A model generated the notes under the pieces. The model was not told the DNA's origin. It searched no databases and saw nothing but the letters and a program-made list of their open reading frames with translations. The position numbers and the translations under genes are program-made. DNA of 64,000 nt from Antedon mediterranea (lineage: Eukaryota > Echinodermata > Crinoidea > Comatulida > Antedonidae), in assembly GCF_964355755.1 (NCBI RefSeq), contig NC_092673.1, forward strand, positions 813,001 to 877,000, in the 5' to 3' direction. This document shows positions 8,423 through 40,862 of this stretch, one piece after another (within the stretch, counting starts at the first letter, position 1; every line of letters begins with the position of its first letter).

Positions 8423-11400
8423 ATGGAGTGTGAAGAAAGCTTTGGAACTGAAGAACAATCTGCTACCTCAGTTGATGCAAACATGGCAAATGGTAGGAAT
8501 AAAAAATGTGAAAACAATATGTATATTGAAAGAAAGAAGTACATATGTATTTTATAAAGAATTAAAAATAATTGATTAAACATACACTTTTGTAACAGTG
8601 GTACACAAAAGATGTGTGTTCTACAAACATTTTTAATAAAAACCACATTACGATGCTAACTATAAATAAAAAAATAATAATAACAACCAAACAGTACGAT
8701 ACTCTGATATGGGCAATTTCACTGCAGTAACCTAGGCCGTCAGTAATAACTGAGAAATAAGCAAGCTCTTCATCAGGTTGTATTTGTCTGATTTAGTTTG
8801 TAATTTTTGATAAAGCACCTGATGGGCAAACTACAACAAAAATTTTATTGAGCTACGATGAAAACTTTTGTTACCAGCGGCTAAAAATGTCATGTTTTTG
8901 GACAAAATTGAGTGTCTCATTGCAAAAAATCATTTTTATGAAATGCATTGTTGTTGTTTGTATGTATATATTTATATGAATTATGTACATTTAAATTGGT
9001 TGATCTACCCCAAACGTATAAGGTATAAACAATGAGTGTGAAATGTACACATGATTAAATTTTTTGTTGTTTTCATTATTGTAATTCTGTCCGTCCAAAA
9101 TGTCCACTCCGACACGTTGGCGTGTACACAGAGCAAATAAATAAGCAAGTCTACTGTTTTTCATCTATATACAACACTGATAAGATTGACCATACATTAA
9201 AATTTAAATAATATATTTAACGGACAATTTGGCTGAATGCCGGGGAATTGAAATCTGTCCGTCCAAAAAAATGTCCACTCCGACACCACATAAACTACTA
9301 TTAATTTTTATATTAATAGTATAAAAAGTTGAATATTCATAGCAAAAATTATAAGCTGACATACTACAATTAATATAATGTACATATAATGTTTCTAAAC
9401 TCAAGTAATTCACTGTAATGCACTCTAATAGTAATAATATGGTGTTTACATAATGTCCACTCCGACACACATATTTGATCAAAGTAAAATGGCTGATTTT
9501 TTAACAACTATGAGACAATGTTATTGTTATTTTATTTATATATGTTTGTGTCATTGATATTTAAGTGAAAATAATCTTGTTTAACTGTGTTTTTAGTATT
9601 ATTAACGAGCCACCGGCACCTGCTTCGAGGCGGCATTTTAGCCTCTCAGACAATAATTTTAAACTAGTTGAAGCCACCATGGCAAAAGTTATGAATTACT
9701 AATTAATACTGGTTGTTATATGTGATCAATTTAAGTATTTAATGCAAAAAAAAAAACACAAAAAAAATTTAATATTTTTCATATTGAAGTTTTTCATGTC
9801 CTGTTTAATATCTCCAAAAATTGTCCACTCCGACACGTATTAACAATCCAAACGACATATTTTTATTTAAAGTAGGTACCAAATATGACCACAGTAAATT
9901 TTATAAGTGCCAACTGATGGTTTTATGGTGTTTGGCTATGATAAGACCATTTTTTTTTATATTTGGATAAAACTTTTGTTTAAATTCTCTGACAAATTCA
10001 ATTTTGTTTTACTCATGACCTTGTCCAAAACATCATCTGCAGATGATGTTTTGGACATGGTCATGAGTGTTATGGTTGTACATATTTTTGTGACATGTAC
10101 TAATGCATAAAATAGCAAATTGAATTCATTGAACATTCTTAATAATAACAAGTTTTTAATTATTTATACTGTTTATTCATGTCCAAAAATGTCCACTCCG
10201 ACACAAATTAACAATCCTTGTTAAAAGACAGTTTTTATCATAGTAAAGCTTAAAAAGTACAAAATGTTAACACACTTTAGAAGTGCCAACTGGTTGGCTT
10301 TAATGTGTTTATGGAATAGTAAGATCATTATTTTTTTTCATTTGGATAAAACGTTTGTTAAATTCTCGGAGAAATTTAATTTTGTCTTACTCAGATGATG
10401 TTTTAGGCGTGGTTATGGTTGCACATTTTTGTTTTGTGTCAATTGGTGTCATGTACTTATGCATAAAATTGAATTCATTTAACATGCTTAATATAATAAC
10501 AAGTTTTTAATTTATTTATACTGTTATTCATGTCCAAAAATGTCCACTCCGACACAAATTTTTATCATGGTAAAGCTTAAAAAGTACAAAATGTGGCAAT
10601 TAGTTGGTTTTATGGTGTTTGTAGCTATATAATACCACAATTTTTTTATTTGAGTCTAATGTTTGCTAATTATTCAACATTTATTGTTAAAATTCTCAGA
10701 CAAATTCAATTTTTCCACTCATATGATGTTTATATAAAGCGCGAGTATATTTTTTAAATTGATACTCTGTACTAGTAATTAAATATTAGCCAAATAAGCA
10801 GTGGCTTTTGTGTTATAATAAAAAAATATTGAGATGTTGATTTCCAAATTTTTCAATAAAATTCTTCCAGTTACTGTGAAATTGAAAAATATGTAAAAAA
10901 AAGGACTTTGAATTTTTGACCCTGTGAGACACTTGCGGCCTAGGTTACTGTGAAATTGCCCATATTGTGTGTACAAATTCTTATTGATATTGTATTTGTA
11001 CAGATTTGAGTATAGAGAACAACCCAGCTGAAGAACAATTGCCTACCACAAGCAACAAAGATGCAGCAACAATGGCAAATGGTAAGCATAAAATATCGAA
11101 ATTTAATTATGAAATTAAGGTGAAATCCAATAATTGTACCCCTAAACAAATAGAAATTATTTTTTAAATGTGAATATTGTACATAAGTATTATTTGTCTT
11201 ATATTTCAGTTTAATTCTCTAATTTAAATATTAAAAAAGGAGATAATTAATCATGTACCATATTTAAAAGAAGACTGATATGCATTTATTTGTGTTTACT
11301 AATTCTGATACTTTAATGCTAATGATTTAAAAAATTGACAAAAAGCATTTATATAGATGATGAAAACATGGCAACTTGTAAGGATTATAAAATGAAAATC

Positions 11401-13205
11401 AAGATAGATTCTAATGAAAATGTTTATTGTAACGTAATATTATTTTATATGGGTAACTGAACTAATGTACTAATCATATCACATTTAAATTAAGGAGTAT
11501 TTGTACCATATTTAAAAACTGGCTAAATTTTATTTATATATATATTGTTTTTCCATACGCATCCAACAATGAGTACGGTAACTCAACAATTACAGGATGG
11601 ATTTATAAATTATCATGCTTAAAAACTAAGTCTCATTTGAGGCTTTAGAGTGGAGTTACACTAGGCCCTAGGTCAGGATTGAACCTCGGACCTTGGCATT
11701 GGAAGGCAGCCTATTAATCTAGAAGATTTGTATGTAAAAATTCTTAACGATATTTTAATTTTCAGATGTTGAAGAACAATTGCCTACAAAAATCAATAAA
11801 GTTAAAACCATGGAAACTGGTAAGAATTATAAAATGGAAAATAGATGTACATAATATCTGAAATAGAGCTGAAATTACAATTTTGATATTTTTTAATGTT
11901 TAGATTTGTGTAGAAAAAAAAACTCTGAAGTTGAAGAACATCTTTCTACCACCAGCGACACAGATAATGCAAACATAAAAACTGGTAAGCACAATAACTT
12001 AAATATATGTTATAATATGGAAAAATCTTATTTTTATTACTTTACTTAGAGTGTTACAATTTGATTTTTAAAATTATTACCAAATGAATGATTAATTTAT
12101 TAAGAGAACAACTTAGAAAATGATGAGGAACCTACCACCAGTGTCACCGTTGATATGAATACACAGACTGGTAAGTTCTGACTAAAATGTTTTTATGCTT
12201 ATTGCAGATGCCATTATATGTAAAATATATATATTATATGATCATTCATGGTTGGGTAGGGTCACATGAGTTATTCAATAATACAAAGAAAATCTAAGAT
12301 TGAACTATAGTATTTTTAAATGTTTTACAGAAGCTTCAGCAGAAACTGAAAAAATGTCCAGAGAGATGCTACGATATGAGAAAATTATTCAAAACATTCA
12401 CGCTCAGGATGGGAAAAGGACAAACGAATATGAGGCTATAGTTAAAAAACAAGAAAACCAGACAAAGGTTATTCAAAATCTACTAGCTAAAAATCAAGAA
12501 GTGCTAAGTGAAAACAGGATTTTAACTAACAGTAAAAATGACTATCAGAAAGTAAGGGAAGAAGTAAGAGAAGAACTAAATGACAAAGAAGGTGAAATCA
12601 GAGGAATGAAAAGTGAAATTGAAGACTTAAAGTCGGATTTGAAAAAAGAGTCACAGAGGGTAGAAAACAAATGCAATGAGAATGAAAGATTAACAAAGCA
12701 GATGAATGATATGTCTGAAAAACAGAGTCAACTAGAAAAACAAGTTAGACAGTTGGAAAAAGATAAAGATAAAACAGGGAATGAAGTAGAAATTCTAAGA
12801 GAAGAGAAGAAACAACAAATTAAAGTTATTGAAAAGCAGAGTAAGGAACTACAAGCTCTGAATACACAAATTGGACAATTACGAATAAAAGTAAAGAATA
12901 CTCATGAATCTTTAAAGAAGGCTACTGGGGAGAAAGATGAACATTTGAAGACAAGCTTAAAATTGAACAAATTAGTAAAACAATATGAGGAAAAATTAAA
13001 CCATCTGACGAAAGAAAACGAGGAACACCAAAGAAAATTAAAAGAGGCTAAAATTGAATTTTATTTGAAAAGGTTATCAGACAGTTATTATTATTTTAAA
13101 GTTGTTATAGGTGTAATCATTTTATCAATTATTTTCAATCCCTATTTTATCTTGTGCATAAAACAATTGTATTATCTCATCGTTTATATATTTAAAAAAG
13201 TATAA
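8423..13205 (+). CDS. Tail-anchored coiled-coil protein with six duplicated small exons
   Basis: Proposed seven-exon gene of 414 residues: 8423-8492, 11004-11081, 11357-11377, 11766-11819, 11904-11984, 12105-12170 and 12331-13205. All introns are GT..AG and all are phase 1. The first six exons encode short acidic, Thr/Ser-rich segments (for example EEQSATSVDANMAN, EEQLPTTSNKDAATMAN, EEHLSTTSDTDNANIKT, EEPTTSVTVDMNTQT) that look like copies of one another. The last exon encodes about 250 residues of charged coiled coil, with GEIRGMKSEIEDLKSDLK resembling the signature of the downstream family, then a hydrophobic tail (about 381-412, VVIGVIILSIIF) ending KKV. That predicts a C-terminal membrane anchor with the coiled coil in the cytosol. 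AATAAA at 13248-13253. The 21-base exon is the least certain. No known family is recognised. Confidence 0.7.
9095..10557. repeat. Repeats carrying a conserved TGTCCACTCCGACAC word
   Basis: Six copies of TGTCCACTCCGACAC (near 9100, 9276, 9453, 9820, 10189 and 10540) lie in the first intron of the coiled-coil gene. The last three sit in diverged tandem units of about 355 bases that share GCCAACTG-TGGTTTTATGGTGTTT and TTTGGATAAAAC. Around the earlier copies the flanks are no longer alike, yet the 15-base word is intact. No reading frame explains this. Confidence 0.8.
10012..10067. repeat. 56-base palindrome
   Basis: CTCATGACC-TTGTCCAAAACATCATCTG is followed at once by its reverse complement, with one mismatched pair and centre at CTG/CAG (10039/10040). 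It would form a hairpin with 28-base arms and almost no loop. It lies inside one unit of the 355-base repeat; the neighbouring unit at about 10380 has only a half-site (ACTCAGATGATGTTTT), so the palindrome arose or was kept in one copy only. Confidence 0.9.
11560..11722 (-). mobile_element. tRNA-derived SINE, family 1 (minus orientation)
   Basis: Read on the minus strand it contains TGCCTTCCAATGCCAAGGTC, a box-B-like GAGGTTCAATCC, CCTCAAATGAGACTTAGTTT and TTGTTGGATGCGTATG. The same order occurs in plus orientation at 28486-28625 and 39061-39245. It is in an intron of the coiled-coil gene. Confidence 0.7.
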
Positions 13206-13253
13206 TGTAACATTTCCTGTATTTGAAAGGGTTTATAGGTTATATGCAATAAA

Positions 13254-15595: not shown

Positions 15596-15825
15596 TATTA
15601 ACGCCAGGCTAGTGATCTGGAGGTCGTGGGTTCGAGAACTACTTGCGTATTTTTTCGCAAGTATTCTCAAATGTACTTAGTATAAAGTACAAATTACGTC
15701 AGAGTAGGGCAAAACATCCAATTACTCAACTCCCTGACGCAAAGCTACAATGACAATCCTGTTGGTGCAGTACCCGCTGCTTACTTGAGCTCGAATCTAA
15801 CCACTAGCCATTTTTTTCTTTTAAA
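15596..15825 (+). mobile_element. tRNA-derived SINE, family 2 (5'-truncated copy)
   Basis: Carries ACGCCAGGCTAGTGATCTGG, the box-B-like GTGGGTTCGAGAACT, then a body (TCTCAAATGTACTTAGTATA, ACTCCCTGACGCAAAGC). It is nearly the same as the adjoining copy at 15826-16014 but lacks the 5' end and has a small insertion. Confidence 0.75.
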
Positions 15826-16271: not shown

Positions 16272-19200
16272 GATAAATATGGATATGGATGGAAGTGAAG
16301 CAGACAAAAAGTTTATAGCCTTAAAAACCAAATTCAGTGAACACTACAATGACCACAAATACCATTGGCTCAAATTTTGCCTTTTTGGTATAGTGCATGT
16401 ATCAGATCTTACTGATGAAACTTGTAAAGCACATAGTTTGCTAAATAAACTGGATGACTTTGGTAAAATCAAAGCTACTAACGTTGACTTCCTGCTAGAG
16501 ATTGCAAATTTATCAGGTTTGCAGAAGGCAAAAGATCTTGTAAATCAATATATGAGTGATAACAAGGTTCAAAACACTTACAAGGAAATATTGTCACCTT
16601 ATCGTAAAGGACTTTACAAAACCATGGAAAATGTTGGACCAGACGACATGCATAAAGTTATTGAGGACTATCAGCTGCAAAAGTCAACTACTATGTGGGA
16701 TGTGGTATTCCAACTAGAAATCCGTACAGAATTAGCAGATCATGAAGACAAAATAAGGATGTTTGCTAGTCTACTTAATCCATTAGCAAGGAACAAACTA
16801 CTTGATATTTGTATGTTTTAAAAAATTCTTTTTGTACCATGTGGATTATTGAATAATGTCTAAATTGTGACTTACAAATTCTTATTTCGTCTTATTGTTC
16901 AGTTAACATGGAAATTCCCCAAGGCTCTTTTCTTACTTTTTACAATCTTTATTAATAACTTTATTGCAAATAGTGTGCGTGATGCATGATGGGAAGGAAA
17001 TGTCAAAATGCGTAATAGGATTTATAGGATTTCATAAATTCATTCATTACAGTAAAACATGGGAGTTTAATAGACTATACTAACAAACTGAAATAGTATT
17101 TTTTAGCTGTCCAGTAGAACCACCGTGGCTTTGGCATATAAATAATACTATTTAAAGTGGCACTCAGAACTAACATTTTTGGAGAGTGATATATACTAAT
17201 TTAGACCAAAAAAATCACTTAAATTTTTATGATTTTGATTAATTAATTATACAAGACGTGGAATCATTTGAAAAAAAAAAATTGGACTAGATCAGTTTCA
17301 GTTGCCTGGCAATTTTTGGTATCTCTAATCTGCTTTTCTAGGCTAGGCCTAGAAATATGTTGTTGACATAATTCACAGTAAATAAATAATGAATGTTTTA
17401 TATTTGTGCAATGGTTCGTCTTATTTCAATTCAATTTAATATAGTGTAACCTTTCATCTTTAAAGATGTATTGTCCCCCTGAAAAAAATTTTTTTTTCAA
17501 TATTTTTGTTGAATAGGCCATTTTAATTGCACATAAAAGTTATTCACTTTGACCTCAATTTGGATTGAAAAAAATAATTTTTTACACGGAAAAATCGCAA
17601 TTTAATGCAAAAATTAACCAACCGGAAGCTATTTGTCTGGAAGACAAATGTGTTCCGGTTTAATTTAACCCTTGACCTGAGTTAGCTCATAAATATTCAT
17701 ATTGTATGGATACATCATGTGGATGATGATGCTTTCCAAATCAACAGCCAACAACGATACAGTCGAGACGCAGAGTGCTCAAATGACCGTTAAATCGCTA
17801 ATTTTCCCCTGCGCATGCGCCATTTTTATACCAGGAAGTAGAAATTGTTTACACTTAGCGACGAACCGCGATGAATTTTTGCATGGAAGAGCCTTCAGAA
17901 ATCCAGTAAAATTTCACCAATCAGGAACCTAATTCACTTGCCAAATATGGTAAAGGCTTACCAAATATAGAAAGAATCTTCCCGCCGACTTTTTTTCGTA
18001 TAAAAGGACGGACATTTAAATCGGCGTCCATTTTTCGAAATCGTAGCTGTCGAGGGCTCAAGTGAGGTAAGTTTTGATTCTGGTTTGTTTTGGTTTGAAA
18101 CAAACCAGCCGATTTTTTCTTCACAAGCCAAAATTAATAACATTCTAGTATGTGTTCAATACACATATAATACATATTCTGAGAAAGATTTGGCTCTGTT
18201 CATTCATGAGAACTATTAAAATTTAGTGCAAGTTGAGCAGTCACTTTTTTCGGGCCGCCGCCATCTTTGTATGTATTCCTTAGCTATATCGTAGATAGCG
18301 CCTGTGCTTTAGCAGATCAATCTTTACCAATCACGGGGCTTTGGTTTGACATATTAGGTTTTGATCGACTATTTATTGATTATCACGCAATTATAATGTT
18401 ATTTGAAGTTATATTTTGGGGAAATTTGTAATTATAAACTGAATAAAATACATTGAGATTTCGGTCTGTATATAGAAATAGGGCCGGCCTACTGTAACTA
18501 GTAGTAGGGCGGATCAACTGTCCACTAGGGCTAGCTAGGCCGATCTGTTTAGAAGTTTCCTATATAGTTATTTCGTACGGATTGAACTATTAGTAATTAC
18601 CCTATGCTATTGGAACTAAATTTGTAATTTTTTTTATTATATGCACCTAGGCCTAGTCCCAGCTGTAGAGCATACTATCTAGGCCTAGCAGCTAGTCAGA
18701 GAAGAGCCAGTCAGCCGGCTCCTGCCCAGGCTATTATGCTGATGCTAGGCCAGCTGGAGTGTTCAACACTCGGCCAGAAATCGATGGTACCAAGCTCACC
18801 AGATGTACTAAAATAAACCTATAAAGGAAGTATACAATGATACTGTAATATTTTCTTTTTATTTTATTTTGCAGGTGTTTGGATGCCAGCGTTTGATCAC
18901 CTCAATTAGTCAGCATACCGTATCAAGCCAGAATGTCTGCTTACTGTTGTGAACCAACTTTCATGTGCATTTACTACGCCAATTTATATCAAGTTTAATA
19001 TGTGTGCTATGTAAATAAGTTATAGAACTATATGATATATTTGATTTTATTTAATAATATTATAATAATTAGATTTGTTTGTCTTAGAATAGTATAAAAA
19101 TAGTATTTTTACATGCAGTATAATTTTGAAAGTATTTATGCCAATACTTTGCCATAATAAAATAAAAACATCTCGTTACATTCTGCATTGTCTAGGATTA

Positions 19201-22200: not shown

Positions 22201-24629
22201 GTTATATATATTATTATATTTAAAATAACCGTCTAGGCCTACTTACCGACAAATTAACAGCTCAGCTTTACATATTTATACGATCAGGCCAGGGAAACCC
22301 GCATAACAGTCGAATCGCGTCGATCTCTGGTGGTGTTGTACATACAACGTGCATCGTCCATTGTTAGATCAGATCTCTGCTGTGTGGATGCTCATTAACA
22401 TATCATGCATATGTATGAGTTAGCTCTACCGGCCTAATTTCTGAGCCGATGAGTTCGAAAAAATGGTAAACTTATTTTGATTTTTTTATAAGCGAAATCA
22501 ATATTTTTTTCGGATTTTTTTTCGGTGGAAGTGAATAACTTTATGTTAACTACAAAACGGTCTATTCAAAATTTGATTTTTTTCATCTTTATTTTTCATT
22601 TTTTGGGGGACAATACATCTTTAACCTCATAAAATTATTTGCCTTATCATATACTTTTGTATACTACTATTATGCTTCCGCATATTGACTGTTGTTCACT
22701 TTGGGATTCAAAAGGTATTAGGACATATGCATCCAACCTTTGCAGAATCATATGCTTTGCGAATAAAATTTAACTGGATACCCTTTCATCTATTTTCCTT
22801 TCCACTTTCAATTTTATAAATGTTTCTAGCAAAATTATTTTCAACTTGGCTGTCTTGCTTTCAAAGCAGCAACTGGTTCTGCATCGGATAACCACATTAC
22901 TTGTGGTATGCATACTCGATCTGTAACTGTTTGTCTCAAAACTGCAGTTCTTCAAAATATCTTTTATATACAGAGTCACTACTTCCTTTCTGAATTCTTT
23001 TCATATGCAATATATCTTATTTTAATGTTATTTTTAATATATATATGAGGCCTGGCATCACAAAAGCGGCGCAGAGTCGCAACCCGAACTTTTGAGATAT
23101 TTAGCCTTGAAGTTCAGAATGTGAAAATCGGCCTAACCTATCCATTTTAAAATTTCAATAAAAAACGATACTATAAACACTTATCTTTAACATATCGAAC
23201 TCTTGTTCATAAAAAAATATCACAAGTATGTGTATTTTGCAATTATTTAAGTCGTTTCCATTGAAAATCATTAGGAAATTGTATTTTTGTTCACTCAAAA
23301 ATCAACTTTCTTTACGGCGCTTTTGTAAACAAACCGCTTACCCGAATGACGTCATGTTTGGTACCTATTTGTTCGAAAATATATCAGCTACCATAATTTA
23401 CCACAACCTAAGGGATTTTTTTTAATCTAGGCAATGGAAATTTGTTTTATTAAGGTGTTAGGTTGCTGAAATTTCTAACAAGAATTTGTGAATCCTTGAC
23501 TGTGATTGGCTATAGAGATTAATTACGCTCTCTGATTGGCTGACGCTTTTGTTTACGATGAAACAGGATGTCTTCCATCGTAGTTTCTCGAATGAACGTT
23601 TCAACATTTAATGAATATTTAGGAAGTTAATCGTTATTTTTATCCATATATTTTTTTTAAATAACAAAAAATATAATATTATGTACCACACAATGATATA
23701 TTTTCGACTAGTTTGCAGTTATTGAAAGGAAAATAGCGAGTTTTGACAGAGAGTCTGGTTGCGTTGATCGACGGGCTAGGCCAAGCTAATCGGTGTCGCT
23801 ACTTCATTGTTGATTTTCTCAAAATGAAGATTTCCTGAGTTAGAAAGTATCTCGTATGTTTTCATTAATAACTCTTCATATAATAAACCAATTTTAATAA
23901 ACAACACCTCATTTTAAAGCTTATTAAATGTAGATTACGAATATATAAAAATCTAAAAAATGATTATTTCCGACACTACGCCTATTTTGTGATGCCATGC
24001 CTCATATATATTTTTAATGGTTTGTTTGAGCCAATTTGTATTATTGTTATTTATCCAAAGTCAACATATTAAAACATAGCAGCAAAAATGCTGAATTGAG
24101 TTCTAATTTACATGAGGCAAAAAACCAAATTCAAATTTTACTTTTGTTCAAGTTTGGCATCATATTGTTAAACCCTAAATTAATTTAGGATATTACTTAA
24201 CTAATGCGTTTTAAAAAGATATCTTTTGCTTTATTGAAGGGACTCGCATACCAATAAACCTAAAGAGACGACATCCTGACTCGATGCAAATAACTTCTCA
24301 ACATTCAAGTGAACATTTGCAAATTATTCGCAATGGAAAACAGGTAGTATCACTAGTTCATGATAAACACAACGACATTGAAATTTTGCTTAAAAAGAAT
24401 GGTTGTACATCTGTTAATTTGATTGAAGGTTCTATAATATTTGATGTGGGTTTATACGATCCTAATGCACTAGAGAAACTATATGAACAACATCTTAATG
24501 GAAAGCTTCTTCAAGATCTAGCAGAAATATTATTTGTTGAGAAATACAGGAAGGCGTTTGAAAAAGCATGGGAACTACACATTAATACAGAAAAGTTCAT
24601 CACTGCACTCAAGGTGCTAACAGGAAAAT
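16272..24629 (+). CDS. Tandem death-effector-domain protein with TRADD-N-like domain
   Basis: Two coding exons are supported. Exon 16272-16810 starts after TTTTTCAG, with the ATG at 16279 (MDMDGSEADKKF). Exon 24240-24629 joins it in phase 1. Residues about 10-93 and 95-176 each show the six-helix death-effector pattern: LLNKLDDFGKIKATNVDFLL then LEIANLSG-type text in the first, LLYK/LYKTMENVGPDDMHKV through FASLLNPLARNKLLDI in the second. The second exon (EGSIIFDVGLYDPNALEKLY, then LLQDLAEILFVEKY and FITALKVL) resembles the TRADD N-terminal-like domain found in invertebrate death-fold proteins. Tandem DEDs are typical of caspase-8/10, FLIP and PEA15-type adaptors, but no caspase domain is seen. 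The exon ends AAAT|GTAAAC, phase 1; it may splice to 24872-25464. If that donor is skipped, the frame ends at a TAA near 24676. The 7.4 kb intron holds the 17460-22624 and 23035-24015 elements. Confidence 0.6.
17460..22624. mobile_element. Composite region bounded by inverted TTAAAGATGTATTGTCCCCC
   Basis: TTAAAGATGTATTGTCCCCC at 17460 is inverted at 22605-22624. Just inside, both ends share A/T-rich text including AAGTGAATAACTTTATGT or its complement. ACTCTGCGTCTCGACTG near 20420 is inverted at about 17760. Between lie CTAGGCCTAG-rich stretches and splice-like and TATA-like words (TATAAAAGG near 18000), but no supported protein. Single ends of the same family occur near 48160-48184 and 34120-34140. 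It could be one large non-autonomous transposon or two facing copies around unrelated DNA. Confidence 0.55.
22640..22992 (+). pseudogene. Decayed LINE reverse-transcriptase C-terminal fragment
   Basis: In plus-strand frames the text reads like the end of a non-LTR retrotransposon polymerase: IMLPHIDCCSLWDS, then SNLCRIICFANKI, then a region rich in hydrophobic and Arg/Lys residues. The PHIDYCS-x-W box and the following LQ..R.RII-type helix are usual in CR1/L2-type LINEs. Stops and frameshifts interrupt it. No other part of the element is visible here. Confidence 0.5.
23035..24015. mobile_element. ~980 bp inverted-repeat element (TGAGGCCTGGCATCACAAAA)
   Basis: Left end ATATATATGAGGCCTGGCATCACAAAA (about 23037) and right end TTTTGTGATGCCATGCCTCA followed by TATATAT (to 24012) are inverted with one base difference. 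It is flanked by TA-rich sequence, fitting a TA target. Short frames inside have no recognisable domain, so it looks non-autonomous. It ends only about 225 bases before the DED gene's second exon. Confidence 0.8.
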
Positions 24630-24679: not shown

Positions 24680-24901
24680 TAAAGTATGACTCTCCCAATA
24701 CCAAACTTTCTGAAAAAATTAAAACTTTGTTGTTTCTTCTTTCCTGCATAAGACGTTTTACTTCATTCTCTTTTTGGCTTTTCTCTATTTTCCTATGACT
24801 AGCTTGCGTCTGCAAGGCATCTATAGTGTTAGTAAAAATCTTGTTCTCATCTAACATTTTCTGACTTTTAGCTTGTAGATCCCGAATGTACCTTGTACAA
24901 G
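24680..24901 (-). pseudogene. Inverted fragment of a coiled-coil family member
   Basis: On the minus strand, 24901 down to about 24680 reads CTRYIRDLQAKSQKMLDENK, then IFTNTIDALQTQASHRKI and further charged helix. This resembles the coiled coil of the first nested gene (IQNLLAKNQEVLSENRILTN) and of the 36281 exon (VCQDLRLERQKLSDENDVL). It sits head-to-head with the plus-strand coiled-coil exon, and the junction is the palindrome CTTGTACAAG (24892-24901). It has no stop for more than 100 codons but also no start or anchor of its own, so it is probably a rearranged gene piece. Confidence 0.55.
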
Positions 24902-25464
24902 ATGCAATAGTCACAGGTGAAACAGGAACCACTGAATATGAGCCAGTAGAAGAAACTGTACTTAGTGATACTGACAATGATACTAAAGATGAAGAGAGTT
25001 CTGAAGAAAACCAAGTTTTGAAATTGCAAATTTACGACTTGCAAAAAGAAAACGAATATTTGTCTGGAGAAGTTAAAGTTTTACAATTGCAAATTTCTGA
25101 TTTGCAGAAAGCCCTTCAAGAAGAAATCTCAACAGAGTTGACTAAAAAGAAAAATAAATATAAAAATATCATACAAGAAAATGAAAGTGAAATTAGAGAT
25201 AAGAAACGTGAAATTGATTCATTAAAAACTGAATTAAACAAACAAGCAATTTGGAGTCAATTTAAAGATAATGAAGTTAAAACTCTAAGAGAAGAGATGG
25301 AAGAGCAACAGCAACAATTAAATGAAAAAATATCCAGGTTGACAAAAGAAAATGAAGATTTAAGTTTACTATGTTTTGGTATTTGCATTATAGGCATTTT
25401 GTTAGTTATATATTATATTATTTGTTTTATATTTGACTGTTTTGGTATTCTTTTCTCATACTGA
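24872..25464 (+). CDS. Coiled-coil, C-terminally membrane-anchored protein or terminal exon
   Basis: Open frame with an ATG at 24886 (MYLVQDAIVTGETGTT), acidic linker (SDTDNDTKDEESSEENQ), coiled coil of about 120 residues with the family signature ESEIRDKKREIDSLKTEL, and a strongly hydrophobic end (LLCFGICIIGILLVIYYII) predicting a tail anchor. It is closely related to 27791-28351 but lacks the MSSEN start of that gene: homology begins at the CTTGTACAAG palindrome. A splice acceptor (CTGACTTTTAG) before 24872 would join it in phase 1 to the DED/TRADD-N exon ending 24629, giving a 504-residue DED-DED-TRADD-N-coiled-coil-anchor protein. Alternatively it stands alone from 24886. Confidence 0.6.
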
Positions 25465-26195: not shown

Positions 26196-26273
26196 ATGAA
26201 AAATTTAATTTGAAGAAAAAGTTCATTTTAAAACAAGAAATTTAGAAGAAGAAAACCAAATCAGATAACAACA

Positions 26274-26906
26274 ATGTCAAGTGAAAATTGTTGTACAAGA
26301 TGTAAAGAAAATCAAGAGAAAATTGAAAAGATGTTGGTAGAAAAAGAAAATTTTAAATTGGAAATCGATAATTTGATAAAAAGAAATAATAAGGAAACCA
26401 CAAAAATTGAAGAAGTTTCAAAAGAGTTAACCAAAACAAAAAATAAATTTAACAATATTCTTTCAGAAAAGGAAAGTGAAATTAGAGATAAGAATCGTGA
26501 AATTTTTGATCTAAAATCTGAATCTAGAAAAGATGAAAATTGGATAAAATACTATGAAATGGAAGTTGCAAGACTAAAAAAGGATGTGAAAGCTAAAGAT
26601 AAGGAATGCAGTGATCAACACAAAGATACAAAGAGTATGGGAAATAAAAAAAATGAAGATTCAACACTAAAGGAAAATATAATTTCTGCTATTATTTTTA
26701 TTGTTATTTTTTGTTTATTATGTAAACAAAATGATATTTTGTTATTTTCAATGGATATTAAAAAGCAAAATATTTCTGGAGAAATTTGCAGCTTGCAGAA
26801 AGGTAAAATCTTTGAACTATTTCAAAGTTACTTCCAAAATGTACAGAAAAGAGAAATCAAAGAAACAATTCATCATCCCCAAGATATATACCGAAATAAT
26901 GACTAA
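26274..26906 (+). CDS. Coiled-coil membrane protein, MSSEN family, intronless
   Basis: Single open frame of 210 residues. The start is chosen at the MSSEN motif (ACAATGTCAAGTGAAAA), which is shared almost base for base with 27791 and 40308. It begins MSSENCCTRCKENQEKIEKM, then Lys/Glu-rich coiled coil with the signature ESEIRDKNREIFDLKSE, then a hydrophobic stretch (ENIISAIIFIVIFCLLC, about residues 136-152) and a 55-residue basic tail. The long tail after the anchor differs from the other members, which end at or soon after it. Could be a single-pass membrane protein of ER, mitochondria or plasma membrane. The family is unknown to me. Confidence 0.65.
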   Translation: MSSENCCTRCKENQEKIEKMLVEKENFKLEIDNLIKRNNKETTKIEEVSKELTKTKNKFNNILSEKESEIRDKNREIFDLKSESRKDENWIKYYEMEVARLKKDVKAKDKECSDQHKDTKSMGNKKNEDSTLKENIISAIIFIVIFCLLCKQNDILLFSMDIKKQNISGEICSLQKGKIFELFQSYFQNVQKREIKETIHHPQDIYRNND

Positions 26907-27790
26907 ACAATGCGTAAATAACACTATAGATATAAAGTCATGAACAGGCAGTTAATTTGGGTGTAGACAAATTATGTACAAGAGTCCAGAAGCAGCAATA
27001 ATACAATCAAATATCAAATACTCTAAATAATATAATAGTAAAGGTCTGTGAAAATCATACGCTGTCAATCTCACACGTGCATCAGACATGCAAAAAATGT
27101 CGGAAAAGTAGACCTATCATTTTGCCGATTGCTGCGCGCCACATGGGAGTGTCACTTCGCTGATTACTAGCTGCATTGTGGGAGTACATTGCATAAGTGT
27201 TTGATCCAAAAATTACTGGAGTAATAATATGTACAGTGCTTAGAGGGTTCACAACATTAGGCGATTTATAAATCTAGGATATTATTATTAATTGCAGCTA
27301 ATTAGAGGTGCCATTTATCATGAATTTTATGTGCGAGAGTACCATTTCTGATCAACTAGGGGTGTAATTTAACTACAGGCCCTTTGTTGGTTTATTCCAC
27401 AATTTTTATTTTAATAAAATATTTTATTTTTCTGACTAAACCACTGATCTCTAGGTGTACATGTTCTTAGATTAGAAGTAAAATAGTATCAGGACAGTAT
27501 CCCAGAAAAGAGATAATTTATTTTAAATGGGGATTGTGGGTTTAAAATTACTATTAAAGAAAATAATATAATAGTTTGTTCTTGAACATATGTACAGTAT
27601 ACTGATGTACTATATACATACATTGTCTTTAAATGTACAATGGAAAAAGGTCTCCTTAGTATTAAGATAAATACGGAATTTTTTGCGCTGCCTTTACCGG
27701 TTACCACAAATTTGTCCTGTTTCTGCTCCCAAGAAGGAAGGATAAAATTGTCATCTTTTAAAAACGAGAGACCAAAAACCGATAATAACA

Positions 27791-28351
27791 ATGTCAAGCG
27801 AAAATCTGGTTGTACAAGATGCAATAGTCACAGGTGAAAAAGGAACCACAGTAGAGCCAGTAGAAGAAACCATACTTAGTGATACTGACAATGATACTGA
27901 AGATGAAGAGAGTTCTGAAGAAAACCAAGTTTTGAAATTGCTAATATACGACTTGCAAAAAGAAAACCAATATTTGTCTGGAGATTTCTAACTTGCAGCA
28001 AATCTAGAAGAAATCAAGGAAAGGGAAAACTTATCAACAGAGTTGACTAAAAATAAAAATAAATATAACAATATCATACATGAAAATGAATATGAAATTA
28101 GAGATAAGAAACGTGAAATTGATTCATTAAAAACTGAATTAATCTCAGAAGGAATGAGGACTCGGCAAAAAGAAGATGAAGTTACAAAACTAAGAGAGGA
28201 GCTGGAAGACCTGCGGAAACAAGTACAGGCAAACAGAAAAGAAAATAAAGTATCATGTTCATGTGTATGCTTTTGTTTACTGGGACTTATTATTGTTATT
28301 ATAATGTTTGTGTATAATTTCTGGAATTTTGCAAAATGGTTAGTGTTATAA
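27791..28351 (+). pseudogene. MSSEN-family coiled-coil membrane gene with one in-frame TAA
   Basis: Starts MSSENLVVQDAIVTGEKGTT and has the acidic linker SDTDNDTEDEESSEENQ. After codon 66 there is a TAA at 27989-27991, and the same frame then continues intact for 120 codons to 28351, with the signature YEIRDKKREIDSLKTELI and a hydrophobic end (CVCFCLLGLIIVIIMFVY). Compared with 24886-25464 there is a deletion of about 28 bases near the stop. Without the stop the protein would be 186 residues. It may be a young pseudogene, a polymorphic null allele, an assembly or sequence error, or a gene making a short 66-residue form. AATAAA overlaps the end of the frame. Confidence 0.6.
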
Positions 28352-31612: not shown

Positions 31613-31679
31613 TAACAGAGGTGAGTTTGTAATTTACGCAATTTTGCATTCATCTATTTCTGTTTCTTAGATTTTCCAA

Positions 31680-32627
31680 ATGGAAAAAAACAGGAGAGAA
31701 AAGGAAATAAAAGATATTGAGAAGAAACAAGAATTGGAAGAAAAAGAAAGAGAATTGAAGAAAAAAGAAGAAAAATTAGATAAAAGAGAAAGTGAAATGG
31801 ATAAACGAGAAAATGAAATGACTAAACGAGAAAGTAAAATGACTAAACGAGAAAGTGAAATGGATAAGCGAGAAAGAGAAATGGAGGAAACACAAGACGA
31901 ATTGGAAGACGCAAAGAAAGAATTGGAGGAAAAAGCAGAGGAATTGAAGGAAAAAGAAGAAAAATTAGATAAAAGAGAAAGTGAAATGGATAAACGAGAA
32001 AATGAAATGACTAAACGACAAAGTAAAATGACTAAACGAGAAAGTGAAATGGATAAGCGAGAAAGAGAAATGGAGGAAACACAAGACGAATTGGAAGACG
32101 CAAAGAAAGAATTGGAGGAAAAAGCAGAGGAATTGAAGGAAAAAGAAGAAAAATTAGATAAAAGAGAAAGTGAAATGGATAAACGAGAAAATGAAATGAC
32201 TAAACGACAAAGTAAAATGACTAAACGAGAAAGTGAAATGGATAAGCGAGAAAGAGAAATGGAGGAAACACAAGACGAATTGGAAGACGCAAAGAAAGAA
32301 TTAGAGGAAAAAGCAGAGGAATTGAAGGAAAAAGAAATCGAGTTGGGGGATAACGAAGGATTTGTGGACCATGATTATGATGATGATGACTATCAAAGAG
32401 AAATAACAGAAAGAGAACTGGAGGAAAAAGAAGAAGAACTGGAGGAAAAAGAAGAAGAACTGGAGGAAAAAGAAGAAGAACTGGAGGAAAAAGAAGAACT
32501 GGCAATAAAAGAAGATGAATTGGAGGAAAAAGAAGAACTGGTGAAAAAAGAAGAAAAAGTTGGAGGAAAAAGAAGACGAATTGGAGAACAGAGAAAGAAG
32601 AATTGGAGAACAGAGGAAGAGAAATAG
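31680..32627 (+). CDS. Heptad-repeat, highly charged helical protein
   Basis: Single frame of 315 residues, preceded by an acceptor-like TTTCTTAG ending at 31670; ATG at 31680 (MEKNRREKEIKDIEKKQEL). Residues 30-92, 93-155 and 156-216 are three nearly identical 63-residue units (nine heptads each: EEKLDKR, ESEMDKR, ENEMTKR and so on). Then come an acidic break (DHDYDDDDY) and four ELEEKEE repeats. Glu, Lys, Arg and Met dominate; the pattern suits a long coiled coil or single alpha-helix. From about 32548 the frame leaves the heptad pattern (VGGKRRRIGEQRKKNW) although heptad-like Glu/Leu text continues in the other frames to 32659, suggesting small frameshifts. No membrane segment. It could be structural, or a low-complexity decoy frame made by repeat expansion. 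Confidence 0.55.
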   Translation: MEKNRREKEIKDIEKKQELEEKERELKKKEEKLDKRESEMDKRENEMTKRESKMTKRESEMDKREREMEETQDELEDAKKELEEKAEELKEKEEKLDKRESEMDKRENEMTKRQSKMTKRESEMDKREREMEETQDELEDAKKELEEKAEELKEKEEKLDKRESEMDKRENEMTKRQSKMTKRESEMDKREREMEETQDELEDAKKELEEKAEELKEKEIELGDNEGFVDHDYDDDDYQREITERELEEKEEELEEKEEELEEKEEELEEKEELAIKEDELEEKEELVKKEEKVGGKRRRIGEQRKKNWRTEEEK

Positions 32628-32849
32628 AAGAAAAAGAAATGGCAAAACAGGAAATTGAATAAGATGGAAATAAAATTACCATTTTGCATAACTAGAAATT
32701 TGATTTCCAGTAGTTTGTCACACATTAGGAATATTATTCACTTAACCACAAACATCTTAGTATTTATAGTTTTGTTTTATAGTTGCTGTATAAGCCTAGT
32801 TTTAAGTTGCTGTAGTTTAATTCACTACATTTCATTCCTTTTCTTTATA

Positions 32850-33095
32850 TGATTGACAATGAACAGAGAAATATTTTCATTGATGTGTCATTGATGTGTC
32901 CTTGATTGATAGCATTGATTCATCATGGAAGGCTAGAAGAAGCTAGGCCATTAAAAGAGGCAAGGCTTCAGTTTTTGATGTGGAGTAGAATAATATTGAT
33001 GGCATGTACTACAGGTTGCCTCGTGTAGCAGAAAAGTATTAACATTTTACAAAATGCTCAGAATGTGCGTTAGTGTTAGAATTAGAATTTTTCAT
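32850..33095. other. Short intergenic stretch; nothing recognised
   Basis: Sequence downstream of the heptad-repeat frame with no exon or transposon end I can support. Confidence 0.4.
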
Positions 33096-33338: not shown

Positions 33339-33585
33339 AGAACTAATACCATATGGCACATGATGCGTAATTAACCAATCAAATGGGAGGAATTGGATGT
33401 GTTATAATAAAAAATTAATGTCAAGGATTGATATAAACTAATGTTAAATTATATATATATTAATAATATAAAATTACAAAATAGACAGCTAATGTAATAG
33501 TAATGCCAGTAATTATGTACTAACAATACAACAAATTAAATATATATAGCACAAAATAAAACCGATTTTTGTTTATCGTGTGGTA

Positions 33586-34203: not shown

Positions 34204-35325
34204 TGTTAAATTTGGATACATTGAAGTCAGTATTCTTTTATTTTGTCGACTAGTTTACTAAATTTCAGATGGATTAATATGCTTTGAATTGATATTTATA
34301 ACACATATGCTCTCAGCTGACTTGGATAGGTAAGGACCTGATGCAATACTAAAGTATAACATACTCCAAGAACTGAACCATACATGAGCTGTTATGTACG
34401 ATAGAAAGTACTTTCAAAAAATATAAAACACACAATTAAAGTAATATACAGCATTCAGATTAATAAATTCAATAATTGAAAGAACCCCCTCTATATATTT
34501 ACAGTACACATTCCATTCACATAATGTACAATTTTGCTAACATAAACAATAAATAGTGAATTCCAGGAATTTTCTAACTTTTGAATCTGATGATTTGACA
34601 AAGGTAAGTATTCTTACTTTTCTAAGGTGAAAAAATTATTGTAATATTCACAATGCCATTGTCATTATACGTGTTTTTGATATTCATATGGTGAAAAGGG
34701 GGAATTCCAGGAGGTAGGATATGGGGTTCAGCAGGAACAGGCTTCTTAACCTATAATATAAGGTATTATGATTAAACACTAAATCTACATCCATTTGTGG
34801 TGGATTCATTAAATGTTTTTTGTTAGGCCTAAATTGAATTTACTAAATATCTATTTTAAGGCAAAGATATAGATACAAAATGAAAATATGTTTTATTAAA
34901 TTGAACATTTAGTACACAAGGGTGATATCATGTCTGAAAGCTCTGAAATTGAGGAACACTCTTCAACCACTACCAGCAACACAGTGGATATAAATACGCA
35001 GACTGGTAAGAATTATATAAATAATTGTACAATTTTGTTTTTAAAAACCTCTACATAAGTTTATACCCACCTTTCAATTTGTTTATGACTTATTATTGTC
35101 ATCAGCTGTTTTAAAAGAAGTCTTAATTCTTATATTAATTCATTTAAATTTAAGTAAAATTTTACCGTAATTTGTTATAAATGTAATTTTATGTTTTAAA
35201 ATCTAATTTAATATAGATTTGTATATTTTATTATTAAAAAGGGACCCTGGATATCAGCTGGCCTGTGGGGTCAGCTGGAAGGGTTAACCTCTATAAATAA
35301 ATCAAGGGTACCATATATTAACTCA

Positions 35326-36225
35326 TACCCCTTTCACACCAAAGCTCTGCAACACCAGGTTTTTCACGCTGCTGCTCTAGCCCGCTACGTCCCATTAGGT
35401 CTACTCAATCAGAAGCTAAAGCAAGCAGCAGTTATAGTTCTAAGGACAGACAGTTTTGTGAAAATGGAAATTCCACTATGATTTATTGATTCCAGCTGCT
35501 ACAGTAGACCCAAAAAACGGCTGGGAAAGAGTCTATTAGGACATGCTAAAATTACAATTCATTGAATTATTATCGAAACAGTCCATTAAAGTTTGTGTTT
35601 GTAATAGGATACTTCACAATTGAAATATCTAGGGTGATGAAGTGACCCCCAGATTTGACCTTAGCAATAAAATTAACTAAAGTGACAGAAATTGAGTATT
35701 CACTTCTGTAACAAAAAAGTAATATTTATTCACATATAAAAAATGAAAAGAAACCCAAAAACCATTGTCTGACAGACAATTTAAGTATTTGTTGCTTTAA
35801 ATTACAAGCGAGCAGCGTTTTTTTAAAGAAATATTTCTTGTTTAAATCTATTTTGTTTGTGATAATATTTATTTTATATTAATTTAATAATGATTTTAAA
35901 AAGTTTCAAAAGACATATAATGTTTTATTTATACTTTTTATTATTTTTTAGACATATATTTTGTACAAATACAAAAAGTATTTTGAAATAAAACTAAAGC
36001 AATTATTGATCATGTGAGGATGACCTTTTGACCTAAAACTCTGGTTGGTACCTTTCACACCAAAACACTGGTGTGTCCCCACAATTCGTTCTCCGGAGAA
36101 CGTTCAGCTGCTCAACCTCAGTCTTTTGAACTCCAGAGTTGTTTTGATTTTACCTTTCACACCAAAATACCGGGGCATCAATTCCGGATTGTCTCCTAAG
36201 TTTTGTGTTTGGTGTGAAAGGGGTA
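35326..36225. mobile_element. MITE with TACCCCTTTCACACCAAA ends, carrying a nested insertion
   Basis: TACCCCTTTCACACCAAA at 35326 is inverted at 36208-36225 (TTTGGTGTGAAAGGGGTA). Further copies of CCTTTCACACCAAAA lie inside near 36050 and 36155. A second copy of the 33586-34203 repeat (35362-35843) sits within it. All of this lies in the single intron of the coiled-coil gene, ending 55 bases before its second exon. Confidence 0.75.
35362..35843. mobile_element. Dispersed repeat, copy 2, nested
   Basis: Same ordered blocks as 33586-34203, with about 130 bases missing from the right half. Nested in the TACCCCTTTCACACC element. Confidence 0.7.
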
Positions 36226-37131
36226 TAAAGACTTATCAATTTTGTTATTTTCACAAATGTTTTGGTATTTATTTTTTTAGATAACCATGAACATGCAACA
36301 GAGAAAAAATATTTGTCTTGTGAAAATAATGTCAGCAACACCATAAAAGAATTAATAGCCAAGGTTGAAAAAAGCACAAGTGAATATGATGCAGTTGAAG
36401 AAAACCTTAAGAAAGTGTGTCAAGATCTCCGATTAGAAAGACAGAAACTATCAGATGAAAATGATGTTTTGAAATCAAAAATTGATGACATGCAGGTAGC
36501 ACAGGATAAAGAAATTAACAGAATGGAACAAATATCAACGGAGTTAACTGCGACGAATAACAGTGTTAGCCAAGAAAAAGACACCAAGATTACAGAAAAG
36601 AACCGTGAAATTCGAGATAAGGACCGTGAAATTCATGCATTAAAATCGGATTTAAAGCTAGAAGCAAAGAGGATGCAAAATCTAGAAGAATCAAGAAAAG
36701 AGCTGAATGACAGATGTGGAAATCTAGAAGTAGATTTACATAAATCAAAAGACCAGATAAAAACTCAGGACAAAAAAATTGGAGATCTACAAAACAAAGG
36801 GAAGAAGACAGATGCCTCTTTAAAGAAGATGACAGAGGAAAGAGATAGACTAAATCTAAGTAATTTAAAAATAAGGAAATCTGAAAAACAACTCAGGGAA
36901 CAATAAAAAAAACTAAAAGAAGAAAATGAGGAGAAGAATAGAGAAGAAACAATTTTGAAAGAAAAACTGAAAAGAGAAATTGAGGAAAGGAACAGAACAG
37001 AAACAACGTTGAAAGACAAAGATTCTCAAAGTGGTCTCCTTTTCAAATGTATAATATGTTTGATCATTCTTTTATTCTTCATTTTGTTTATTACTGTATT
37101 AACTTTTGTATTATTGTTCACCAATAAATAG

Positions 37132-39060
37132 ATGCATAAACATGTACAATCTTAAAACTTGATACTAAATTGTGCATCACATCAAACAAATAAATTTTAC
37201 GAAAGCCCAAAGACAAAATTTAACTTCAATATTTATATTTATTGTAACCTCCCTTTCACTGCGTGTACCCAGTATTACCGGATATAAACAATGTTGTTGA
37301 ACTGAGCATACCTGGTATTACTGGATATAGCAAAAACAATTATTTAATCGTATTTGCCTATAATATACAGCATCCTCTATATATTTCGACAAACTGGAAT
37401 ACATTGCAATTCATTAAAAATCAAAGTTTCCAGCACAACATGTGCCCTCTATAGTTTTGAATACCGTCTTACAATTTTGATTTTAATTTGCGACCCTTTT
37501 ATAGTTATCTATCAGTGATTTTTCTTTCAAAATAGCTGTAATGACATCACATGACGTCATTATTATGCAAAATACCTTTTTTTTTAACTCATCCCAACCA
37601 TAGACCAAACTTTTATATCAAAAAAACATGTTACACACAGAGGTGGGACTAACACTGTGCAAAGGGTTAATTGACGATCATCCTATGATACATTTTAGCT
37701 ACACATTTCTTTGTTTATAAGAATTTTAGGTTTTTATATTTGTTTTTAAATTTTTATATCTTGATAAATTATATGTTTTAAATTGTACAATTAATAGATT
37801 TTTACAATTGATTGTATTCAAAATGTTCGGTACATAAACGGGAAAAATTGAGCTCAGGACAAATCTGTGGACTTCCTTAAAATTTTTAAGTATGTGTACA
37901 ATATTTTGGTGCTAATGCTATATATAAAGATGCAAAGATAAATAAATTAATATGCTAGCTAAATGGCAGAATATGTAGGCGAGAATGAAGGGGAAGATTG
38001 CATAGATTTAAATTTTATAAAAATTGGATTATAATATTCCATATATTTTCTTACATGTAATATGTTCAGAACATATAGCATTCCTAGTATAGTTCTATTC
38101 TCTATACTCTTGTGTATTCACAAAACATTCATTTTGACCAAATTGTAGAGCAAATTACTATTAATAGTAATTTTATTTTAAAAATTACTAGTAAAAAGTA
38201 AACTTTAACTTTTTGAGTTTCTAATTGCACATTACATACGTATATATAACAATAATGTTAGGTACATTATTGTATATAGTATTAAATTACCTTAATTATG
38301 ATCATGTTAAGATTAAAAAATATTTTTTTTAGTTGATACTAGTCACAATTAATATAAATGGAATGTTAAGTACCAGTATGATACAATTATATATACCTCA
38401 TTTTGCATCAAATTTATCTAACCTTTTCAGGGTATAAAAATATTTTTATTATTATTATAAGGTTTATTTGTTGTTAATAAATATACAAAAAAAAAAGAAG
38501 AAAAGAGAGAAAACATTAATAATCTTATGAAATTTAAAATAAAAGAATAATGATTTGTTTTTTTTATATATATTTATATTTATCAAATGAATTATTTGAA
38601 ATTCTATACTTACCCTTATTTAAGTACCTTATTAATTTATATTATTGTAATAGCTTATAAAAGAAAAAAATGTTTACGTTGAATTGAATATATTTTGTAT
38701 TTAAGCTTTAAAATTTCCTCAGCTTCTTATAGGATGCATGAGACATTGTAATAGGTGCAAACAAATAAACGATTATAATTATAATAATTTAAAAACATTA
38801 CACCAAGAGTAATATTCTAAATATGAATCTATAATATATAATAACAAATAGGATCAATATTCTATTAGTCTATAATAGAACTTATTTTGTTATTATAAAA
38901 CACTGTTGGAGTTAATAAAATATAACGTTTTGTATACAGTCTAGACTAAAGGCTGCGTTTATAAACGGTGTAAATAAATGAATTCTATAAAGAGTTTACT
39001 CAGTTTGAATGAATTAAAATTTTAATCCATGCCAACAAAAAAAACCTAATTATAGCTATA
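37132..39060. other. Intergenic, very AT-rich; nothing recognised
   Basis: Long A/T runs with no exon, transposon end or tandem array I can support on either strand. Confidence 0.5.
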
Positions 39061-39245
39061 GCTCGTAGTGAAGCTGTAGCTTGGTGGTTAACATGCTTGC
39101 CTTCCAATCCCAAGGTCCAGGGTTTAAGCCTGACCTAATGCTTGGGTTGTAACTCACAACTCCACTCCCTAAGCCTCAAATGACAGTGAGACTTAGTTTA
39201 AAAGCATGATAATTTATAATTGGCGAGTCTGTGCTCACTGTTGGA
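39061..39245 (+). mobile_element. tRNA-derived SINE, family 1
   Basis: TGTAGCTTGGTGGTTAACATG (box A), TTGCCTTCCAATCCCAAGGTC, CAGGGTTTAAGCCTGACC (box B), then CCTCAAATGACAGTGAGACTTA and CACTGTTGGAGATGCGTATG. This is the fullest of the three family-1 copies. Confidence 0.75.
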
Positions 39246-39610
39246 GATGCGTATGAAATTTTAAAAACAATATGAAGGAGACAAAGTTTTGCACCAGAGT
39301 ATGATCTAATACTTTGGTGAAATATAGTAGTCCTGTATTTTTGGGAGATAAATATAAGAGGATGACCTAGTGTTAGTTTTAACATTAAATTTAAACATAT
39401 CGTAAAATCTATGAGGATAATAAATTTAACTGTAAAAGAAGATTTTGAAATTATACGCATGATTCTTTTTTGGAGCAATGTTAATTTAGTAAGATTTGAT
39501 TGAAAAGTATAAGGAAGAACAAGGTACGATTTGGACAGATTCAAAGCCTTTGAAGAAATCACAATCCTGGAATTTGCAATACTCTGACGTAAATTGTACA
39601 TCTGTTCGGA
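39246..39610 (-). pseudogene. LINE reverse-transcriptase 3' fragment (minus)
   Basis: The minus strand reads SNLTKLTLLQKRIMRIISKS followed by a leucine-rich region and RSYSGAKLCLLHIVFK. The kl..LQ+R..RII motif and the distal R-x-Y-S/N block are typical of the C-terminal end of jockey/CR1-type LINE polymerases. The frame stays open but diverges from the family, and the catalytic part is absent, so it is a 5'-truncated, decayed insertion. A SINE abuts its 3' end. Confidence 0.55.
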
Positions 39611-40307
39611 AATAAATCAATATTAAATCAATATTACACCAATCAATAAACTAATTAATATACTCATTTACTGTATGTACAAATCAGCACGAAGTATAAC
39701 TGGTGGAAGAATTTTGTACCATTAAACTATTGTGAGCAGGTTTACACAGTAAAGTAAGTATACAGTACTATACTATATACACAGTATAATTAAATAAAAA
39801 CAAAGATGTGATATTCATTATTTAATTTAACTGTTATTTTATCATTAATAAACTAGGTTCATGCATTCATGCTTGGGAAATTTCCACAACAATAGGGTTG
39901 TTCCAGGAATAGCCTTACAGTTTCTATTCTGAGAGACTGCATTAAAAGTTAATCAATGAGATACTAAACCTAAATGACTAGGTGCATTTTTTGTTTCAGC
40001 CTTCTGTCATTATTGTAGAAAGTTATAAGACTCAACAGAGCCACAGGTGATTGATTCACACACAAACTTGCAAGAAAAATAAAGGGAAATTGACAGAGCA
40101 TTTGTTCATATTATTTCTTACCAGTTGAAATTTTCCTTGTGATTTTTAAAGTAGAAATATACAATAAAAACAAATTATCTTTTAATGGTTAGTGCTTAAC
40201 GTAAGAAATAAATTTGCATACATAAAAACCAAATAATTGATGGAGTGGTTGATCTTCTAAAAAATCAGATATTACTTAAGAGGCAACCAAAAACAGAAAC
40301 AAAAACA

Positions 40308-40862
40308 ATGTCAAGTGAAAATGTGGATGTCAAGAATGAACTTAGAACTCAAAATGAGCAAGATTTGAAATTGCACAATTATGACCTACATAAAGCGCTG
40401 CAAAAAGAAATCAAAGAAAGTAACAAATTATCATTGCAGTGTCTTGAAAACAAAAATGAATTTAACATTGTCCTACATGAGAAGGACAAGGTAAGTAGAG
40501 ATAAGGACCGTGAAATTGATGATTTGAAATCTGAAAAAAAGAGAAATCAAATTTGGCTTCTAAACAAAGAAAAGGAAGTTACAAGACTAAACGAGGAGGG
40601 ACAAGCTAAGGATGAGAAAATCAGGGATCAAAAGAAAATTATCTTTAAGTTAATTGTTACTATTAGTATTATTATTGGTTTGCTTTGTACGCTTCTTATA
40701 ATTATATTCTTATTCGGTATAAACCAATTAATTGAGCTCCTTCCAACCGGGATAACGGATATTGAAGAATCAACAGATAACCATGTACAATTTACTACTG
40801 ATGAACTAAAAAACTTAACAATTAAATTGTTGTCATTTTTATTTTCTTGTCCAATCATATAG
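40308..40862 (+). CDS. Coiled-coil membrane protein, MSSEN family, intronless
   Basis: 184 residues from the conserved start (ACAATGTCAAGTGAAAA; MSSENVDVKNELRTQNEQDL). The frame is open upstream to 40245, but the shared start motif with 26274 and 27791 decides for 40308. Coiled coil with the signature SRDKDREIDDLKSEKKRNQ, then a hydrophobic segment (LIVTISIIIGLLCTLLIIIF, about residues 116-138) and a 46-residue Asp/Glu/Thr-containing tail with TDIEESTDN. Predicted single-pass membrane protein. Upstream text CAACCAAAAACAGAAACAAA resembles the 5' leaders of the other MSSEN genes. No known family. Confidence 0.65.
   Translation: MSSENVDVKNELRTQNEQDLKLHNYDLHKALQKEIKESNKLSLQCLENKNEFNIVLHEKDKVSRDKDREIDDLKSEKKRNQIWLLNKEKEVTRLNEEGQAKDEKIRDQKKIIFKLIVTISIIIGLLCTLLIIIFLFGINQLIELLPTGITDIEESTDNHVQFTTDELKNLTIKLLSFLFSCPII

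Follow-up and report, generated by a model that had tools for sequence, protein, structure and literature searches.

Six related coiled-coil open reading frames or genes, all on the plus strand, lie in a 64-kb stretch of DNA from the crinoid Antedon mediterranea (the window: positions 813001-877000 of its contig). We tentatively interpret them, at a little short of an even chance, as copies of an Antedon-restricted, fast-diverging coil/membrane module, one copy of which would supply a DED-TRADD-N adaptor with its variable C-terminus, with the products making membrane oligomers that have a role in signalling. Within this proposal the gene model of the composite is better founded than the signalling role. 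Coordinates of the genes and of the domain exons discussed below are given in Table 1; the genome searched comprised 354.4 Mb in 18 contigs.

Table 1. Genes, exons and fragments in the window (position 1 is its first nucleotide).
Feature	Position	Strand	Description
Gene 1	8423-13205	+	Modelled as six exons (407 aa): repeats of acidic Thr-rich mini-exons, then a long coiled coil and a hydrophobic segment at the C-terminus
Gene 1 exons	8423-8492, 11004-11081, 11766-11819, 11904-11984, 12105-12170, 12331-13205	+	
Tandem death-effector-domain (DED)-like exon	16279-16810	+	Proposed N-terminus of composite gene 2; Pfam DED sub-threshold
TRADD-like N-terminal domain (TRADD-N) exon	24240-24629	+	Composite gene 2; genome matches, and PF20694 in relatives
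Antisense coiled-coil fragment	24687-24893	-	Relative of the gene 1 coil; lies largely in the intron preceding the gene 2 coil exon
Gene 2 coil exon	24872-25464	+	Encodes a coiled coil and, C-terminally, a hydrophobic segment; proposed to form the C-terminal part of composite gene 2
Gene 3	26274-26906	+	ATG-started coil, hydrophobic segment, then 60 residues
Gene 4	27791-28351	+	Closely similar to the coil exon of gene 2; frame interrupted by a TAA at 27989-27991
Gene 5	34930-37131	+	Two exons, 34930-35005 and 36281-37131; frame interrupted by a TAA at 36904-36906, ahead of hydrophobic segment
Gene 6	40308-40862	+	ATG-started coil, hydrophobic segment, then 51 residues
Three CARD exons	49792-50121, 53966-54304, 59044-59451		Above Pfam cut-off

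Measured from stop to stop, four of the coil ORFs were 199-225 aa long and one was 307 aa. In 40 simulated sequences of 64 kb, by comparison, the longest ORF averaged 135 aa and never exceeded 181 aa. Gene 4 was the exception, with halves of 81 and 119 aa, and an in-frame stop was found in two of the six genes (4 and 5). For gene 1 we modelled five mini-exons and a coil exon, joined throughout by phase-1 GT-AG junctions into a single open frame; this model excludes a possible further mini-exon near 11358. An earlier note on this DNA, made from the sequence alone, had overlooked the stops, as well as the three CARD exons further downstream and the DED-like and TRADD-N exons, to which the exon at 24872 can be joined by splicing.

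That note had described a signature in the coiled coils of five genes, and a search of the six-frame translation of the window bore this out: RDK.RE[IL] occurred five times, always on the plus strand (25195, 26484, 28100, 36613 and 40497), and the looser version that it reported for gene 1 was present in exon 12331-13205 as GEIRGMKSEIEDLKSDL. The motif was retained in five of the six genes though much else had diverged. A start context said to be common to three genes turned out to be exact only in two, genes 3 and 6: ACAATGTCAAGTGAAAA was found at 26271 and 40305 and nowhere else in either the window or the whole genome, and the copy at 27788 (gene 4) has AGC instead of AGT. At the DNA level, matches of 71-82% connected genes 2, 3, 4 and 6, the highest being between 27810-28233 (gene 4) and 24893-25328 (gene 2). 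For the coils we compared 10 of the 15 possible gene pairs in the right frame, each against 60 heptad-block shuffles, and nine pairs scored above all of their shuffles (G2-G3, G2-G6, G3-G6, G1-G2, G4b-G6, G1-G5, G2-G5, G3-G5 and G6-G5, the last of them barely, at 38.5 versus 38.1); the pair G1-G3 failed, with 4 of 60 shuffles reaching its score. A permutation test found a significant heptad period in every gene except gene 6 (p 0.21).

Every gene had one hydrophobic segment towards its end (best 19-residue mean 2.28-3.31), and a hydrophobicity scan saw no strongly hydrophobic N-terminus. Tail-anchored proteins have no signal peptide and only one hydrophobic segment, which lies no more than about 30 residues from the C-terminus; they are inserted into the membrane post-translationally with the N-terminus in the cytosol. 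Beyond the best segment there were 14, 13, 60, 12, 4 and 51 residues in genes 1 to 6, respectively, so that the description of all six as ending in or near a hydrophobic segment stands for four (4-14 residues after) and fails for genes 3 and 6; the term tail-anchored is too strong for the whole set. Two of the four, genes 4 and 5, have their in-frame stop ahead of the segment.

When the DED-like, TRADD-N and coil exons were joined through phase-1 GT-AG introns, the frame stayed open over 504 residues, and its only hydrophobic region was at the C-terminal end. From this exon structure we infer that gene 2 may be transcribed as a single DED-TRADD-N-coil unit; a point against this is that its first intron would be 7.4 kb, compared with a gap of a few hundred bases in several related loci. 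The DED-like exon matched Pfam DED with an E-value of 7.5e-4 (20.1 bits, under the cut-off of 35.9), ended in a phase-1 donor (T|GTATGT) and was the single DED-like ORF among the 536 ORFs of at least 40 aa in the window, where a CARD exon scored 0.042. The TRADD-N exon had at least 29 genome matches including itself, 27 of which we aligned, leaving out a near copy of another match (L019, a copy of L018) and a partial match with a stop (L033). Ten of the 27 aligned members matched PF20694 (TRADD-like_N) at E<=1 and one of them, L009, exceeded the curated cut-off (24.8 bits versus 23.7); L009 matched the window exon at an E-value of 8.9e-19. The window exon itself had no Pfam match to PF20694, and the TRADD-like N-terminal domain of gene 2 is thus recognised indirectly, by way of L009. 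L018 and L019 are nearly identical DED-TRADD-N loci on two chromosome-sized contigs (C9 and C8, respectively), and their likeness suggests a recent duplication.

Of the 28 other TRADD-N matches, 21 had a relative of the DED-like exon on their upstream side (86 upstream ORFs were compared, giving 14 direct matches at E<=1e-3 and 21 after one profile round), and the other 7 loci had no DED-like exon within 1.5 kb upstream. When six of these related exons were scanned with Pfam, four gave sub-threshold DED matches (the best, in L016, with an E-value of 3.3e-5) and two gave none. A phase-1 donor was present at the end of the DED-like exon in 10 of 18 loci scanned, the others being the window's own TRADD-N locus, its DED exon being out of range, and seven with no clear end. 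A profile made from the TRADD-N alignment gave chance-like matches only when searched against the PDB (the best to adiponectin, E 0.0071 over 44 positions), a PDB search with the DED-like exon found nothing better than E 0.27, and single-sequence AlphaFold models of the TRADD-N and DED exons were too poor for use (pLDDT 40.8 and 37.3). Downstream of four DED/TRADD-N loci there were same-strand ORFs for NACHT (~8 kb past the TRADD-N exon, L008), a URGCP-type GTPase (~10 kb, L033), a protein kinase (~5 kb, L009) and a B-box (~0.3 kb, L024); these are candidate C-termini, which agrees with the picture of variable C-termini published in PMC8195603, as far as the available text of that paper goes. 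The window has one TRADD-N match and one DED-like ORF, and genes 1, 3, 4, 5 and 6 have no DED and TRADD-N exons of their own there; the database protein corresponding to gene 5 (below) is likewise without these domains.

The junction between the TRADD-N and coil exons contains the antisense fragment, which is related to the gene 1 coil (35.8 bits, reached by none of 60 block shuffles); against gene 5, 2 of 60 shuffles reached the score. Because coil-coding DNA in the window is 64-69% purine, its antisense is pyrimidine-rich, and the plus strand at 24687-24871 is 64% pyrimidine, a value attained by 0.4% of same-sized windows. The gene 2 acceptor ends at 24871, inside the fragment, and was rated moderate by a crude scoring under which 4.6% of all AGs do as well. 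Gene 2 does not have the MSSEN start that gene 4 has, and an inversion may have both removed an old start of this type from gene 2 and supplied the acceptor. The same fragment interrupts the region between the two exons, and the TRADD-N exon can read through to a stop of its own (ORF end 24676), features also expected if the coil/membrane ORFs were independent small genes and the DED-TRADD-N exons belonged to another gene, either ending in the TRADD-N exon or continuing elsewhere. We consider that arrangement rather unlikely. It would account for the similar ATG context in which genes 3, 4 and 6 begin and for the presence of only one DED-like and one TRADD-N exon in the window, but not for a gene 2 that is missing the start seen in gene 4 and possesses a correctly phased acceptor; in addition, among entries of matching length the protein database, which includes at least one Antedon protein, yielded neither gene 2 as a protein by itself nor a tandem-DED protein.

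Searches of a large protein database (5.77 billion proteins, candidates of similar length only) yielded nothing from the gene 2 single sequence and, from a profile of all six genes, one protein, P0001 (233 aa), so that no relative was found in these searches besides gene 5 itself. P0001 is an uncharacterized NCBI protein of Antedon mediterranea, in keeping with the earlier guess that the DNA came from an echinoderm. As far as the TAA it matches our model of gene 5 at every residue. This annotated protein agrees with the phase-1 splice from mini-exon to coil and terminates ahead of the hydrophobic segment. Genes 3 and 6 were not among the database proteins of 108-343 aa, though they match the profile by construction. 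This absence, together with the in-frame stops in two of the six genes and the antisense fragment, could indicate that the cluster is mainly debris, i.e., duplicated and decaying remnants of one ancestral coiled-coil gene without a joint function. Genes 2 and 4 share 80% DNA identity over 146 aligned coil codons with dN of 0.242 and dS of 0.202, and a dN/dS of about 1 is what such debris would give; the ratio fits relaxed and diversifying selection alike, the two being inseparable on these data. Against decay, however, genes 1, 2, 3 and 6 hold open frames beyond the chance maximum, NCBI lists gene 5 as a protein, and the motif is kept in five of six genes despite wide divergence; we regard this reading as rather improbable, though not negligible.

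The genome protein searches (E<=0.01) placed gene 2 at four sites and genes 1 and 5 at one each, all inside the window, with no match outside it for any of these three queries. The assertion that no named family has this layout held at the sensitivity used, as no Pfam match of the six genes reached its curated cut-off; the nearest was DUF4407 for gene 2 (27.7 bits versus a cut-off of 31.3, E 2.1e-6). Membership in the golgin, tropomyosin or GIMAP families was unsupported at this sensitivity (Golgin_A5 9.4-10.5 versus 31.7, Tropomyosin 12.9 versus 38.6, and no GIMAP/AIG1 family among the Pfam matches of the six genes at E<=1). That the genes are fragments of such a known coiled-coil family, as the weak Golgin_A5, Tropomyosin and DUF4407 matches might hint, is very improbable, since these fall under their cut-offs (the first two far under) and vary by gene, a PDB search with gene 2 gave nothing at E<=0.1, and the large database, among proteins of similar length, returned only gene 5. 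For the members searched, the coil/membrane family as found so far thus appears to be restricted to this Antedon mediterranea locus.

The interpretation we prefer, that of an Antedon-restricted coil/membrane module with one copy at the end of an adaptor, would work as follows. The genes form a small tandem family. They have in common a unit made of a coiled coil and, after it, one membrane helix, and the N-terminus attached to this unit differs between genes: in gene 2 the unit would be the variable C-terminus of a 504-residue DED-DED-TRADD-N adaptor, in genes 1 and 5 it would be preceded by short acidic Thr-rich mini-exons joined through phase-1 junctions, and genes 3, 4 and 6 would use their own ATG starts. 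The coil, predicted to be cytosolic, may assemble homo- and hetero-oligomers on the membrane. Oligomers of gene 2 would then cluster the DED and TRADD-N domains and might nucleate the recruitment of caspases or adaptors, creating a membrane-anchored signalling platform, which the short paralogues, including anchor-less ones, could modulate through coil pairing. The proposal also includes a possible role in cell death or immunity. A more specific version, which we think unlikely in its entirety, would have a membrane-anchored DED-DED-TRADD-N adaptor arise by capture of the lineage-specific coil/membrane exon, with an inverted coil fragment providing the phase-1 acceptor, the short coil genes acting as oligomerising modulators, and the whole forming a local parallel of MAVS-like adaptors. 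If the composite transcript is real, a coiled-coil membrane anchor joins the known C-termini of marine-invertebrate DED-TRADD-N modules, and phase-1 exons plus an acceptor-creating inversion within a local cluster are a possible route to such architectures. If it is not, the locus still illustrates, in a crinoid, a coiled-coil family of narrow taxonomic range and rapid turnover.

Further along the window, the three CARD exons have phase-1 donor-like ends, and those at 53966 and 59044 each precede one of two mutually related coiled-coil ORFs (54846 and 60153) with phase-1 acceptor-like starts, a pattern in favour of the preferred interpretation. A link between the 60153 coil and the region upstream of gene 3 was dismissed as too weak (E 3e-4 without composition correction). 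Another ORF, at 31680-32852, encodes a highly charged coiled coil containing a 189-bp repeat (3.2 copies, 98% match) and has an in-frame stop ahead of a hydrophobic stretch; pieces of coil occur in other frames towards its end, so its frame looks broken. Part of it (31671-32624) passes the cut-off for Pfam RNase_Y_N (36.1 versus 32 bits), perhaps through coil composition. Repeats are found elsewhere too: an ORF at 43565-44173 contains 11.6 nearly identical 30-bp repeats encoding the decapeptide KAYTQDKHEM, well-conserved minisatellites occupy 46471-46934 (28-bp unit, 16.6 copies, 99% match) and 5573-6265 (a 28/44-bp composite array), and inverted arms of ~250 bases with 97% identity are found at 48725-49608, in the window's highest-GC stretch (0.40). 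A minus-strand ORF at 44927-45193 encodes a Myb/SANT-like DNA-binding domain above the Pfam cut-off and is possibly derived from a transposable element.

The closest published counterpart of the composite is the DED-TRADD-N expansion described in eLife in 2021, reportedly by the Aravind group. In its available text, PMC8195603 describes a unit of death-fold and TRADD-N domains with variable C-termini in marine invertebrates and large lineage-specific DED-TRADD-N expansions, naming starfishes and echinoderms. A C-terminus made of a coiled coil and a membrane helix, as proposed for gene 2, differs from those adaptors in not being among the C-termini listed in that text, where the sole mention of a coiled coil concerns RNA polymerase. 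PMC8195603 was also the only open-licence paper found to treat TRADD-N, DED, coiled-coil, transmembrane and invertebrate together. No open-licence paper was found combining crinoid, genome, death domain, immune and expansion, and none combining exon shuffling, phase 1, death domain and echinoderm.

Among better-known systems, CARD9 and CARD11 exemplify CARD-coiled-coil adaptors. The window resembles them in its three downstream CARD exons, two of which are followed by related coiled-coil ORFs, and departs from them in that the CARD at 49813 is nearest to caspase-9 and RAIDD among solved structures; Pfam found no CARD in the ORFs of the six genes. BAP31 is an ER protein with a coiled-coil/DED-like region. 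Like it, the gene 2 composite would unite a membrane segment, a coiled coil and a DED-like region in one protein; unlike it, judging by description, the composite would not be a multi-spanning protein with its membrane part at the N-terminus. MAVS is a CARD adaptor anchored in the membrane by its C-terminus. Set side by side with it by description, gene 2 has DED-TRADD-N in place of the CARD, and by analogy with MAVS the composite would use its anchor to cluster a death-fold domain on a membrane.
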